DNA of 64,000 bases from positions 372,001-436,000 of the forward strand of contig NZ_PVTH01000002.1 in assembly GCF_003002875.1 (NCBI RefSeq), written 5' to 3'. A program made the translations under genes and the position numbers. Below are positions 23,800 to 29,533 of the stretch, piece after piece (positions within the stretch are counted from its first letter, which is position 1; each line of letters begins with the position of its first letter). The DNA comes from Arcticibacter pallidicorallinus (GTDB taxonomy: Bacteria; Bacteroidota; Bacteroidia; Sphingobacteriales; Sphingobacteriaceae). The notes below the pieces were generated by a model that was not told the DNA's origin, did no database searches, and worked only from the letters and a program-made list of their open reading frames with translations.

Positions 23800-26247
23800 C
23801 TAAAATTCATAGTTTATCCCTAAAGAGGGGATGAGGTTCCCTGATGAATCATTCAGAATGACCGGAATTCCATTACTTCCGTTCGGCTGCAGCGGCGCTC
23901 CGTCACTGGTAACAAAACTGCTGTTATCATCACTTCGCTTAAATGTGTACTTCGGGAAAGAAGCATTCTGCGTTTTAAGGATGTTTTGAATGTCGATGTA
24001 GAAGTTTAACGACGTTTTTTTCAAGTTTACTCGTTTATCTACACGAAGATCCGTTTGACTAAACGAACGGAGTCTTTCCGAATTAAGGCGGCTATAATCA
24101 AATGTTCCGGTGCCAATAGCCAGATAATTCAATTGAGAGCGAAGCATGTCGAATGGTGTATAAGGAGATCCGCCTGCAAAGCGGTATTTAAGACCCAAAT
24201 CCCAGTTATTCTTGAACTTGTAACCCAGGGTAGCAGAGAAAAGATGTTCGTTGTCCCATGAAGATGGCAGCAGTCTCCTATTCAGACCAGAAAATTTACT
24301 TCGTACATAAGTGTAACTGGCGACATAAAAAATCTTGTTCTCCAGCTTCTGCTGCGCGTAGACTTCGAATCCATATGTCTCTCCCTTGCCAATACTCAAC
24401 AGCTTTTCACTTCCAACAGATGTGTATTCAGAACCTTGATTAGCTAGTGATATTCCTGTCGCTTCTGAAACGGGGTAATCGTTGTATCTCTTAAAAAATG
24501 TTTCGAAGGTAAATCGCAAAGAGTTCTTTGGCAGGAACTGGGTCCCTAAAACATAATGGGTAGACTGTATGTAATCAAGGTCCTTGTTTGCATTTACACC
24601 ACTGTTATTCGCATATCCGAGAGCGGTATAAGGGGGGATCTTGAAGTATGTACCCACTGAAGCGTTGATGTCCCAGCGCGAATCAAGATGATAGGCAAAC
24701 GAAAGTCTTGGCGATAGTGTCTTGAGTGGATTGGTACCGTTATCGGTAAACGTATTCATATCCGTGCGTATACCCCCCGAGACTAAAAGTTTATCATTAA
24801 ATATATTCTTCGACGCTTGTGCGAAAAGCCCGTATTTCCAGAAATTAATCGCATTATCAAAGATCAGCACCCGTCCGGGCGAAATGATGTTACCCTGTTC
24901 GTCACTTACCGTGTTCGACAGTTTGTTAAAAATGTCTCCGTTATATCCTACATACTGCGTCATCAGACCGCCCGAAAGCTTCCATCCGTTAACGAATTTG
25001 TTAATATCAAACCGCAGTTTGTTTTCCATTTCCTGCGATTCAACCAGGAGGGTTCTTGTAGACTCAATTTTTTGCTCATCCTCAAACTTGTCCAGATTAT
25101 TTTCGAACATGTTGCGGCTAAGCGACACGTTCATATAGCCGTTTCTGATCTTATGGTTTAAGTTGAAACCAATGGTATAATTCCATTGGTTGATATAGGG
25201 GGTTGATCGGAGGATATACGTGTTTTCGGGTGTCGATTCTCTTGTCGGAGCAAAGTTGAAATGATCCATTGCACCTAACCCGATTGCTGTCAGTGTCGTC
25301 TTTGCGTTAAATTTATGCGTTACCTTGTACTGAAAGTCTTCAAAATCCGGACGTATCGGAAGGTCGATCAGCTTAAACAACAAGCTCAGGTAAGACTTCC
25401 TGGCTGATGCAAGGAACGTGGTTTTTTCCGATAACGGTCCCTCTAGGGTTAATACCGATTCCGTAAAGCTTATCCTGGCGTTTCCTGATAGGCGCTCAGC
25501 GTTTCCGTCTCTCTGGGTGATCACGAAGGTTGAGGCAAGTGGGTTGTCATAACGCGCGTCAAAAGCGGAAGAAGACAGCTTCAGACTCTCAATAAAAGAA
25601 ACATTTAAAATTCCCTGGGCTCCACCTGAACTTCCCTGCGTTTGAAAATGATTCAGGACAGGAATCTCTATTCCATCCAGGTAATAGACGTTTTCGTTTG
25701 GTGCGCCACCGCGTACAATAATATCGTTCCGCTCTCCTACACCATTGCTGATCCCGACTCCGGGAAGCGTCTGCACAACTTTAGAGACATCAAAGTTTCC
25801 TCCGGGATTGCTTTTGATTTCCTCAGTTGTGAGTTGCTGAACGGAGAGAGGGGTAACCATGTCGGTTGCAATCGCAGATTGTCCTTTGTTAAAGGTCACT
25901 TGCACTTCGTTTAAACTATTTACAGCGGGCTCAAGCCGGAAGTTGACAATCTGAGCATTCCCGCTTGATACTACCACATTAAATTTTTCTTCACCCAAGT
26001 ATCCTACATATCCGGCACTCAGGGTGTAAGTTCCAACAGGAACACTGATTCTGAACCTTCCGGTGCTGTCCGTCGCGGTGCTAACACCGGTACCCTTCAC
26101 CGTCACTGTCGCCCCCAGGATCGATTCATTAGTATATCTGTCAACAATGGCGCCAGTTACTAAACCTGTTCTCTGTCCGAGAACCTGCACGCTGATAAGT
26201 GAAAAGAATATAAAGAAAATGGTTCCGGTTTGGAAGCTTGCTCTCAT
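23800..26247 (-). CDS. TonB-dependent outer-membrane receptor
   Basis: This 815-residue protein has a signal peptide (about 1-24), a carboxypeptidase-regulatory-like domain (about 28-112, GAIVDRYTNESILGATVTVKG), a plug domain (about 130-240, with VVQTLPGVGIS and DIIVRGGAPNENVYYLDGIEIP) and a 22-strand barrel ending in an aromatic residue (NYEF). It imports a ligand through the outer membrane with energy from TonB/ExbBD. It stands alone without SusD or uptake genes, so the ligand is unknown. It is transcribed away from a second TonB receptor, the two starting 349 bp apart. Confidence 0.9.
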   Translation of the reverse strand: MRASFQTGTIFFIFFSLISVQVLGQRTGLVTGAIVDRYTNESILGATVTVKGTGVSTATDSTGRFRISVPVGTYTLSAGYVGYLGEEKFNVVVSSGNAQIVNFRLEPAVNSLNEVQVTFNKGQSAIATDMVTPLSVQQLTTEEIKSNPGGNFDVSKVVQTLPGVGISNGVGERNDIIVRGGAPNENVYYLDGIEIPVLNHFQTQGSSGGAQGILNVSFIESLKLSSSAFDARYDNPLASTFVITQRDGNAERLSGNARISFTESVLTLEGPLSEKTTFLASARKSYLSLLFKLIDLPIRPDFEDFQYKVTHKFNAKTTLTAIGLGAMDHFNFAPTRESTPENTYILRSTPYINQWNYTIGFNLNHKIRNGYMNVSLSRNMFENNLDKFEDEQKIESTRTLLVESQEMENKLRFDINKFVNGWKLSGGLMTQYVGYNGDIFNKLSNTVSDEQGNIISPGRVLIFDNAINFWKYGLFAQASKNIFNDKLLVSGGIRTDMNTFTDNGTNPLKTLSPRLSFAYHLDSRWDINASVGTYFKIPPYTALGYANNSGVNANKDLDYIQSTHYVLGTQFLPKNSLRFTFETFFKRYNDYPVSEATGISLANQGSEYTSVGSEKLLSIGKGETYGFEVYAQQKLENKIFYVASYTYVRSKFSGLNRRLLPSSWDNEHLFSATLGYKFKNNWDLGLKYRFAGGSPYTPFDMLRSQLNYLAIGTGTFDYSRLNSERLRSFSQTDLRVDKRVNLKKTSLNFYIDIQNILKTQNASFPKYTFKRSDDNSSFVTSDGAPLQPNGSNGIPVILNDSSGNLIPSLGINYEF

Positions 26248-26425
26248 GCGTTAGTTCGGATAAATAGTAAAACTACCAATATTCACCACATTATGTTTCG
26301 TATGGAGAGTTGATAACGGAAAAAATGGCTTTCTTCTGATGGGCCGCTGAGTAGAGACCTTCGTAAAATTCAGTCTCATCCAGTCGTTGAAGAACAGGTT
26401 TGTTACAATTATTTTTACTCAACGC

Positions 26426-26454
26426 TTGACAGCTCTGATTTATTTCTATATTTG
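26426..26454 (+). promoter_or_regulatory. Promoter of the 26.6-29.5 kb TonB receptor transcript
   Basis: TTG at 26426-26428 is followed after 18 nt by TATATTTG at 26447-26454, a full match to the -7 consensus. A start near 26460 leaves a leader of about 135 nt before the receptor ATG, holding a small ORF and an inverted repeat. In the rest of the 349-bp gap (26248-26425) I see no ORF or hairpin, and no good promoter for the divergent receptor. Confidence 0.6.
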
Positions 26455-26473
26455 TCTATCAAAACTATAGACT

Positions 26474-26554
26474 ATGAGTATTTATCTACTATCTCGGTTC
26501 CCCGCGCTACTCTGGCGCAATAGTAAAACATGTTGTCGTCGTCCTGAAAATTGA
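26474..26554 (+). CDS. Candidate leader peptide with Cys-Cys-Arg-Arg codons
   Basis: An ATG 20 bp after the -7 box opens a 26-codon frame ending in TGA at 26552-26554, 42 bp before the TonB receptor ATG. The peptide starts MSIYLLSRFPALLW and ends NSKTCCRRPEN. The codons TGT TGT CGT CGT at 26531-26542 form one arm of an inverted repeat whose other arm lies just upstream of the receptor start. This layout is that of amino-acid-responsive leader peptides, with tandem Cys codons as the sensor. Translation is not shown, and the frame is short enough to arise by chance. Confidence 0.4.
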   Translation: MSIYLLSRFPALLWRNSKTCCRRPEN

Positions 26555-26590
26555 TCCGCTATAAAACTAAATTCCTATTCAACGACGACG
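26535..26590 (+). promoter_or_regulatory. Inverted repeat linking leader-peptide codons to the receptor start
   Basis: GTCGTCGT (26535-26542), within the Cys-Arg-Arg codons of the leader ORF, is complementary over 8 bp to ACGACGAC (26582-26589), extendable by a T-G wobble to 26590. The right arm ends 6 nt before the receptor ATG at 26597, so pairing would block ribosome access. A ribosome stalled on the Cys codons would keep the stem open. The mechanism is inferred; the complementarity is direct. Confidence 0.45.
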
Positions 26591-26596
26591 TAACAA

Positions 26597-29533
26597 ATGA
26601 AACTTATCCATATTGCCTTATTCTTATTATTATCGATCTTCTCAGCCGCAATCTTTGCGCAAGGGAATAATTTTATCATCGTAAGCGGTACTATCGTACA
26701 GCAAGAAACAAAAACTCCTCTTCAGGGTGTCAGCGTACTCCTTAAAGGTACGGTAACCGGTACCTTGACAGACTCGAAAGGCGATTTTAGCCTTCGAACT
26801 CGCGCAAAATATCCTTTTACCCTGGTGTTTTCGAGTATTGGCTTTGAAACTCAGGAATTTGAAATAACAAGCCCGGAATCAAAGCTGAACATCGAGCTCC
26901 TCACCCAAACCGTTTTGGGTAAAGAGGTGGTGGTCACCGCTTCAAGAGTGGAAGAGAGCATACTTAAATCTCCTGTGGCTATTGAAAAGCTCGACATACG
27001 TGCTATAAGAGAGAGTCCGGCTCCCGGATTCTACGACGCATTGGAAAATGTAAAAGGTGTTCAGATGACCACCTCGAGCTTAACGTTCAAAGTTCCCAAC
27101 ACCAGAGGATTTAACATCCCAAATAACTTTCGTTTCGTACAGCTGGTAGACGGCGTCGATATGCAGGCTGGTACGCTTGGCGTTCCACTGGGTAATGCTA
27201 TCGGACCAACCGAGCTGGACATCGCCAGTGTGGAGATCACCCCCGGTGCCGCCTCAGCTCTTTACGGTATGAGTGCCATCAACGGTATGGCCAACCTCAT
27301 CACCAAGAGTCCTTTCCTATACCAGGGCTTGAGCCTTTACACGCGCAACGGAGTCAATCACGTGGGTGGTACAGGTCGCGATGCCGGTATTCTTACTGAA
27401 AGCGCGTTGCGGTACGCACAGGCTTTCAACAATAAATTCGCTTTTAAAGTAAATGTAAGTTATATGAGGGGAAAGGACTGGCTGTCGGATACCCGCACCA
27501 ACCAAAACCCTAATACGCTCAATACCGCCAATCCGCGCTTTTCGGAGCTGAATGCCGATGCTGATAATCCGGCTTATGATGCCTGGAATAAGTACGGTGA
27601 CGATAATGGGAGTAATGCGGTAACGATCAGCGGACTTACTATTCCCGGACAAACGGGGGCTCAGAGTATTGTAGTACGCCGTACGGGATACTGGGAGAAA
27701 GACGTAGTTAATCCAATTGTGGATAACCTCAAATTCGATGCTGCCCTACACTACCGTTTGTCGGATAACGCAGAGCTATCTTACGGTTATCGTTTCGGTA
27801 AGCTTGACGGACTTTTCCAGAGAGGAAACAAGATCCAGATGGATAATGTAACCGTCCAGAACCACAAACTGGAACTCAAAGGCTCTAGCTACTTCGTTAA
27901 GTCATACATATCTATCGAAAATACCGGCGACTCTTATAACATCAAGCCACTGGTAGATAATCTCGATATCACCAGCGGAGGTAAGAACTCCGTTTGGCAA
28001 GCTAAATATAAGACCGCGCTCCAGAACGCACTGAATGCAGGAACGTCCTTGGCCGAGGCTCTAAAGCTAGGACGTGCTGCTGCCGATGCCGGCCGCGCAG
28101 AACCGGGAACTGCCCAGTTTAACGACTTGAAAAATACCATCGTCGGCATTAATAACTGGGATCACCAGGAAGTCGTAGGCGGTGATGCCCCCGCAACGGG
28201 CGGTGCCTGGCTCAACCAGAAGAGCCGCACCTATCATACTGACGCACAGTGGGATCTGTCCGAAAAGGTTAAAGTTTTTGACTTGCTGGTAGGTGGTGAT
28301 CTCCGCATTTACGAAGTCGTACCCGACGGTAATAACTTCGTGGACTTTACCCGCCCTCTCGCAGAAAGGAATAATCCGCTTTCGGACGGAAGCTTCGGCG
28401 ACAACGTTTACTACAAGAAGTTTGGCGGTTTTGCCCAGATAACGAAAACGTTGTTTGAAGAGAAACTGAAGCTCTTCGGATCCTTGAGGCTTGACTACAA
28501 TCCTGAGTTTGACGCGAAGTTCAACCCGAGAGTTGCGGCTGTATACACCCTGGCCGAGAAGCACAACTTCAGAGCATCACTTCAGAACGGATACCGTTTC
28601 CCTGCTCTTTTTGAAGCGATTTCCTTTGTTAATAACGGCAATATCCGACGTGTAGGTGGTCTTTCTTATATCAACGAGGGACTCAATTATCTGGATAACT
28701 CTTATACTCTTGCATCAAGTGACGTCTTCAATGCGGCTGTAAATGCAGATGTGGCTGCGGGATTGTCTGCAAATGACGCTGCGCTTAAAAATAAAGCACT
28801 ACTGGCAGCAACCTCCTTGTCGCCCACTCGTCCCGAACGTATCAACTCTTTTGAAGTGGGATACAAAAGCGTACTGCTGGAGAATAAGTTGGTTGTTGAT
28901 GTAGACGCATACATCAATCAATACGACGGTTTCCTGGGGCAGGTAGAAGTTTCCGTGCCATATAAGAGATCGCTAACCCCTGGTGCTAATTTCGTTGAAC
29001 AGGCACCTGTCGGAAGTGATGACGCAATTTTCGCGATGCTCAGAGCGAACAGAGACGCACAGCAAACGCGCTACAGGGTGTACACCAATGCTAAGAATAA
29101 GTATAATAATTACGGTGCTGCATTGGGACTAACCTATAACTTCTACCAGAAATACACCATATCAGGTAATGCCAACTACAATAATATTTCGGAGAATACA
29201 CAGCCCGATGTGTTTGTTACCGGCTTCAATACTCCGAAATGGTCAACCAACGTGTCTTTCGGAAACCGCGAAATTGTAAAAAATATCGGTTTCAATATTG
29301 TTTACCGCTGGCAGCAGGAATTTTTATGGGAGAGTCCGCTTGTAAACGGTACAGTTCCTTCTTTCGGGACATTTGATGCTCAGGCTACCTATAAAATACC
29401 GCGACATAAAGCCACGTTTAAAGTCGGCGGCACCAACATCTTTAATAATAATTATGTGCAATATGCCGGTGGCCCGACCCTTGGTGGATTATATTATGTG
29501 GCCATTACCTTAGACGGGCTCCTGCAAAAATAA
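26597..29533 (+). CDS. TonB-dependent outer-membrane receptor with candidate leader control
   Basis: This 978-residue protein has a signal peptide (about 1-22, ending IFAQ), a carboxypeptidase-regulatory-like domain (about 28-110, LQGVSVLLKGTVTGTLTDSKG), a plug (about 118-240, with EVVVTASRVEESILKSPVAIE and SALYGMSAINGMANLIT) and a long barrel. The C-terminus (TLDGLLQK) lacks the usual terminal aromatic residue. The plug is closer to iron/cofactor-type receptors than to SusC. No partner genes are adjacent. The 5' leader holds a Cys-Cys leader peptide candidate, which would suggest control by cysteine or sulfur supply. Confidence 0.9.
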   Translation: MKLIHIALFLLLSIFSAAIFAQGNNFIIVSGTIVQQETKTPLQGVSVLLKGTVTGTLTDSKGDFSLRTRAKYPFTLVFSSIGFETQEFEITSPESKLNIELLTQTVLGKEVVVTASRVEESILKSPVAIEKLDIRAIRESPAPGFYDALENVKGVQMTTSSLTFKVPNTRGFNIPNNFRFVQLVDGVDMQAGTLGVPLGNAIGPTELDIASVEITPGAASALYGMSAINGMANLITKSPFLYQGLSLYTRNGVNHVGGTGRDAGILTESALRYAQAFNNKFAFKVNVSYMRGKDWLSDTRTNQNPNTLNTANPRFSELNADADNPAYDAWNKYGDDNGSNAVTISGLTIPGQTGAQSIVVRRTGYWEKDVVNPIVDNLKFDAALHYRLSDNAELSYGYRFGKLDGLFQRGNKIQMDNVTVQNHKLELKGSSYFVKSYISIENTGDSYNIKPLVDNLDITSGGKNSVWQAKYKTALQNALNAGTSLAEALKLGRAAADAGRAEPGTAQFNDLKNTIVGINNWDHQEVVGGDAPATGGAWLNQKSRTYHTDAQWDLSEKVKVFDLLVGGDLRIYEVVPDGNNFVDFTRPLAERNNPLSDGSFGDNVYYKKFGGFAQITKTLFEEKLKLFGSLRLDYNPEFDAKFNPRVAAVYTLAEKHNFRASLQNGYRFPALFEAISFVNNGNIRRVGGLSYINEGLNYLDNSYTLASSDVFNAAVNADVAAGLSANDAALKNKALLAATSLSPTRPERINSFEVGYKSVLLENKLVVDVDAYINQYDGFLGQVEVSVPYKRSLTPGANFVEQAPVGSDDAIFAMLRANRDAQQTRYRVYTNAKNKYNNYGAALGLTYNFYQKYTISGNANYNNISENTQPDVFVTGFNTPKWSTNVSFGNREIVKNIGFNIVYRWQQEFLWESPLVNGTVPSFGTFDAQATYKIPRHKATFKVGGTNIFNNNYVQYAGGPTLGGLYYVAITLDGLLQK

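Follow-up and report, generated by a model that had tools for sequence, protein, structure and literature searches.

The stretch of Arcticibacter pallidicorallinus DNA analysed here, 64,000 nucleotides long and referred to below as the window, carries on its forward strand a gene for a TonB-dependent receptor of 978 aa (26597-29533) with CarboxypepD_reg-like, Plug and beta-barrel domains, the orthologues of which are about 63-80% identical. The same strand holds a Bacteroidota-type promoter (26426-26454), read directly as TTG (26426-26428), 18 nt and TATATTTG (26447-26454), and an ORF of 26 codons with an ATG start (26474-26554; MSIYLLSRFPALLWRNSKTCCRRPEN) that ends in KTCCRRPEN, 42 nt from the receptor ATG. 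The arrangement TTG-N18-TATATTTG is one that we take to be the promoter type usual in Bacteroidota, and a scan with the sigma-70 consensus gave no promoter match at the leader locus. Tandem Cys codons, TGT TGT (26531-26536, forward strand), form the proposed stall site and are followed by CGT CGT (26537-26542); the leader thus has two Cys codons only, fewer than the leaders of many relatives. A putative operator, the imperfect dyad GTCTATCAAAACTATAGAC (26454-26472, without assigned strand), overlaps both the promoter and the predicted transcription start, scores 27.6 bits with a weight matrix and is by far the best such site in the 64-kb window; the first-pass annotation of this DNA had missed it. 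A search with Rfam covariance models over 26200-26800 gave no match up to E = 1, nor did an NCBIfam search with the leader peptide, which at 26 aa is hard to match. No intrinsic terminator (a hairpin with a U run) lies between leader and receptor in 26380-26620, so that attenuation in the window, if there is any, is more likely to be translational than terminator-based.

Short ORFs with tandem Cys codons are conserved before orthologous receptors, a check that the first-pass annotation had proposed, and Cys-Cys leaders occur at positions orthologous to that of the window ORF. Orthologues were drawn from related whole genomes, a genome collection (80 loci) and the family of a Rufibacter genome, and 99 upstream regions of 200 nt each were scored for an ATG-initiated ORF of 6-45 aa with Cys-Cys within its last 12 residues. 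Such an ORF is present in 40 of the 99 regions, whereas 200 dinucleotide shuffles average 1.1 and never exceed 4 (an enrichment of about 36-fold), in a set that includes some close relatives, and is therefore not fully independent, and in which peptide sequence is highly varied outside the Cys run. Three consecutive Cys residues occur in 22 regions (0.07 expected from shuffles), the reverse strand of the same 99 regions yields a single Cys-Cys leader, and no other residue comes near the figure for Cys. Arg-Arg near the leader end is also raised (13/99, 2.5 expected) and often adjoins the Cys run. Examples of orthologue leaders ending in Cys runs are MSTMKMLKMCCC, MGHYIFSQCRCCCCCF, MSEYKNLNVQNECCCCR, MKNNQLINKQPMCCCCC, MESKYIIHYQFTCCS, MKPDVLKANQRRKRMCGLARRHCCCCR and MQKTLPTRCYRQFVINYFSHSCCCCCRF, together with MRVSQRRCCSSR and MPAVFPRRCCSR from Hymenobacter-type genomes; they have the Cys runs in common and little N-terminal sequence. 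Tandem codons for the regulated amino acid in a short upstream ORF, the arrangement by which an attenuator is recognised, are thus present, and the retention of Cys runs within otherwise variable peptides points to decoding of Cys rather than a function of the peptide, a pattern that would be expected from selection on Cys decoding and not from a conserved peptide. About 60% of the 99 regions have no such ORF, including those in which the receptor ATG directly follows the dyad; in Sphingobacterium, Chitinophaga and Chryseolinea the dyad is kept, the leader has been dropped and the receptor ATG lies closely 3' of the dyad. The leader is therefore dispensable.

For 76 of 86 receptor orthologues the dyad, with the consensus TTaGTCTACTAAATctATAGAcTtTAt, reaches at least 12 bits at a distance of no more than 250 nt, as scored with a matrix trained on the same receptor set, for which shuffled regions give 6.8 bits at the 99th percentile; 9 of the remaining 10 orthologues have it farther upstream, at 232-647 nt. 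Elsewhere in this genome the dyad model finds sites at a second TonB receptor, a peroxiredoxin gene and the cysH-cysD operon, the last of which has the dyad and no leader. The second receptor (locus L136; G000:C5:258010, minus strand) has both the dyad and a leader of its own, MKTQNSQSHQTTKNQNVRHAGNARMCC. On the 3' side of this second receptor lie a peptidase-like gene, genes for two membrane proteins and an FAD oxidoreductase, and a transporter-like gene, and a similar set is found in L239. Across seven relatives the dyad precedes cysH and genes for siroheme methylase, sulfite reductase, sulfatase, TauE/SafE and peroxiredoxin proteins, as well as a class-V aminotransferase gene (cysteine desulfurase-like). 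Dyad and Cys leader stand together in relatives before SusC genes, before a SusC/SusD/sulfatase operon, before the gene of a PLP enzyme of Cys/Met metabolism, and before a gene for a putative periplasmic protein that lies 5' of a further SusC/SusD and sulfatase set. The PLP-enzyme case, in Solitalea agri (L162), has the leader MKKTLQTSVLSACDFNISQPAKLITNKLNNICYCCCCMC and places a cysteine leader on a biosynthetic-type gene within Bacteroidota. In one Hymenobacter-type genome the receptor and its leader are part of the sulfate-assimilation operon, in which the order is cysH, cysD, cysN, the siroheme methylase gene (cobA), cysJ, the receptor with its leader, an outer-membrane protein gene and cysI. 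Downstream genes serving cysteine supply are accordingly present, by this operon context and by the sulfatase and PLP-enzyme targets, and the tie to sulfur supply that had been proposed for the receptor is backed by operator, regulon and operon context alike.

CymR is a member of the Rrf2 family. It is described as the master regulator of cysteine metabolism in Firmicutes (PMC2869319), and the resemblance here is that of an Rrf2-family protein found with cysteine and sulfur genes, with binding to the dyad putative in our case and suggested by genome context. An Rrf2-family gene at G000:C13:74773-75291 directly follows the sulfite reductase and siroheme synthase genes of this genome; 24 of 37 genomes have an orthologue, and many of these orthologues adjoin sulfite reductase or siroheme synthase genes. 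The two marks of an Rrf2-regulated sulfur operon, an operator common to sulfur genes and linkage to an Rrf2 gene, are both found, and the Rrf2-family protein is probably the repressor that acts at the dyad, a candidacy that its genomic neighbourhood suggests. The attenuator leader would then lie, as is probable, within an Rrf2-type sulfur regulon.

Genes for tRNA-Cys also occur near dyads. This genome has two (50.5 and 61.3 bits), and the lower-scoring one (L319 / G000:C1:228557-228626, and L112) lies about 25 nt downstream of a sulfur-type dyad, suggesting that the regulon takes in the supply of tRNA-Cys. Members of the Rufibacter-type clade have a tRNA-Cys gene between the dyad and the Cys leader, 5' of the receptor (L040:7502-7573, L043:7607-7678, L044, L048, L050, L194, L205 and L206). 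The equivalent tRNA gene at L045:7596-7667 has a tRNA-Cys-like body but the anticodon GAA (Phe) according to ARAGORN, and two tRNA-Cys-like sequences that adjoin dyads in Hufsiella (L119 and L134) are not accepted as tRNA genes by the same program.

The first-pass annotation had also described complementary 8-nt arms, GTCGTCGT at 26535-26542 within the Cys and Arg codons and ACGACGAC at 26582-26589, which at its far end lies 7 nt from the receptor ATG (26597); these arms and their distance to the ATG, like the promoter and the ORF with its KTCCRRPEN end, were found in place. By folding, that exact register has a pair probability of about 0.2, and the preferred fold is longer, pairing 26531-26535 with 26591-26595 and 26537-26543 with 26584-26590. 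The best stem in the window accordingly has 12 pairs and one bulged base (TGTTG/TAACA and CGTCGTC/GACGACG), its 5' arm occupying 26531-26543 (TGTTG, the bulge and CGTCGTC) and its 3' arm GACGACGTAACA 26584-26595, both on the forward strand, and reaches to 1 nt from the ATG. The Cys-codon region pairs with the spacer at -17.8 kcal/mol, a value that no shuffled spacer out of 200 equals (mean -8.7); the 167-nt leader as a whole folds moderately better than its shuffles, and no more than that (z -1.7). Masking the leader, to imitate a ribosome stalled on it, raises the mean unpaired probability of the receptor start region from 0.34 to 0.69. Same-genus orthologues of the receptor are two others only, both 68-70% identical, so few and so diverged that the stem in the window is not traceable over short distances.

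As a general feature the Cys-codon stem finds no support: in 36 leaders Cys codons pair with the spacer no better than in shuffles (mean z -0.2), and once the window is excluded a Cys region pairs no better with its own receptor start than with a mismatched one (p = 0.24). The earlier claim had been made to depend on conservation of the ORF and of the complementary arms, and it has come apart in two, the ORF being conserved and the arms not. The Cys-codon sequestering stem may therefore be this genome's own version, or its details may turn over fast. A different stem is predicted in the Rufibacter-type clade (nine sequences), in which the first codons of the leader pair with the stretch before the receptor ATG; it has a mean z of -2.9, separates cognate from non-cognate pairs (p = 0.0016) and includes two-sided compensatory changes, for example GAUGUU/AACAUC and GAUGUCUU/AAGACAUC. 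Such a first-codon stem is not supported outside that clade (p = 0.33). In Hymenobacter-type leaders the spacers are long and fold strongly, and an alignment of these leaders shows CGATGTTGTAG over the Cys codons to be nearly invariant. RNA structure that could couple a stall to the next gene is thus strong in the window and in the Rufibacter-type clade and not in the remaining leaders tested, a distribution that suggests a conserved sensing part, the Cys codons, with a coupling structure that varies by lineage where it is seen.

We consider it likely that the ORF encodes the leader peptide for a cysteine-responsive attenuator, probably acting translationally here, which forms one layer of a two-layer control of sulfur acquisition. 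In the first layer, as motif and targets suggest, a repressor, probably the Rrf2-family protein, would, in times of ample sulfur, bind the dyad that overlaps the promoter. The anatomy of the second layer is there to be read, and from it we infer the action. With charged tRNA-Cys plentiful, a ribosome translating the leader would finish it, the Cys codons would pair with the bases that immediately precede the receptor ATG, and the receptor would be poorly translated; with cysteine scarce and charged tRNA-Cys low, the ribosome would stall on the Cys codons and cover the arm, the start region would open and the receptor would be made. Across Bacteroidota, a short ORF with a row of Cys codons close to its end would be the constant element, and the read-out of the stall would differ, through a Cys-codon arm here, a first-codon arm in the Rufibacter-type clade and other structured spacers in Hymenobacter-type genomes.

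A leader may also respond to cysteine with no stem involved, if the stalled ribosome alters Rho-dependent termination or mRNA stability, or supplies ribosomes to the nearby start, and the stem in the window would then be incidental. That the Cys codons are conserved and the stem is not, that the window lacks an intrinsic terminator, and that CruR of Bordetella controls its TonB transporter through Rho-dependent termination (PMC9973294) would all fit such a mechanism; however, the window stem is unusually strong and the sister clade has a stem at the leader start with compensatory changes, which together suggest that structure matters where it is present, and we regard a stem-free mechanism as rather unlikely. 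A sensor of metal or redox state, in which the Cys-rich nascent chain and not its codons is sensed in the manner of CutF or CruR, appears improbable: Cys runs could bind metal, and CruR, too, is an upstream ORF that precedes a TonB transporter (PMC9973294), but the peptides here range from 8 to 45 aa with no common motif and no proline-rich stall motif seen, the window peptide, short as it is for such a search, has no NCBIfam match, and the neighbouring genes are those of sulfur, not copper. Regulation by the dyad alone, with the ORFs translated by chance or left as relics, would account for the wider distribution of the dyad and for the many lineages without a leader. It is difficult to reconcile with an enrichment of Cys-Cys of about 36-fold over shuffles, or with the persistence of the leader both in the Rufibacter-type clade, with the dyad at a distance of 430-650 nt, and in Hymenobacter-type genomes that have no recognisable dyad, and we hold it to be highly improbable.

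The cysteine-responsive attenuator within a sulfur regulon that we favour has partial precedents. In mycobacteria, poly-cysteine leaderless short ORFs are described as cysteine-responsive attenuators (Canestrari et al. 2020, Mol Microbiol, as cited in PMC13236596 and PMC9094748). The system is like the present one in having tandem Cys codons in a short ORF before sulfur or cysteine genes; it differs in belonging to Actinobacteria, in its leaderless mRNAs and in its cysteine biosynthetic targets, whereas here the phylum is Bacteroidota, the targets are a TonB receptor and SusC and sulfatase genes, a separate operator is present, and the case is drawn from sequence alone. The uORFC-8-2 motif before cysS in Rhodobacterales is a terminator-type attenuator with tandem Cys codons (PMC8632094), and in it, too, a short upstream ORF has two of them close to its end; it acts through an intrinsic terminator on cysteinyl-tRNA synthetase, whereas here the terminator is absent and the target is a transporter. 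In Bordetella a copper-responsive upstream ORF (CruR) controls a TonB transporter (PMC9973294). The position of the present leader before a TonB transporter is like that of CruR, and a stem hiding the start of the next gene is like that of CutF, but those systems sense copper, not sulfur, through proteins that carry Cys motifs together with a proline-rich stall sequence (PMC9973294). Within Bacteroidota, leader-peptide attenuation of amino-acid operons has been suggested in Flavobacterium psychrophilum (PMC9723704). A literature search, with subscription papers mostly outside it, found no cysteine leader described in Bacteroidota or before a TonB receptor, which is weak evidence of novelty.

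More tentatively, and with rather more doubt than confidence, the elements described above may amount to a widespread cysteine sensor of Bacteroidota, in which nothing more than a fast-evolving short ORF ending in Cys codons is set on an Rrf2-type operator and controls outer-membrane uptake, sulfatase and cysteine/methionine genes and, via the operator, a second tRNA-Cys gene, the leader being kept and the RNA structure that reads it being reinvented from clade to clade. On the reading that we favour, a cysteine-leader device known from mycobacteria would be extended to a new phylum and to a new kind of target gene, apparently raising sulfur scavenging when cysteine is low. If that reading is true, outer-membrane uptake in a major phylum would be tied to the charging of tRNA-Cys, and the combination of dyad and Cys leader would be a signature for sulfur-scavenging transporters and sulfatase loci without a known substrate. 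It would also be a case of conserved sensing codons read through an RNA structure that is itself not conserved, and structure-based searches would miss such cases.
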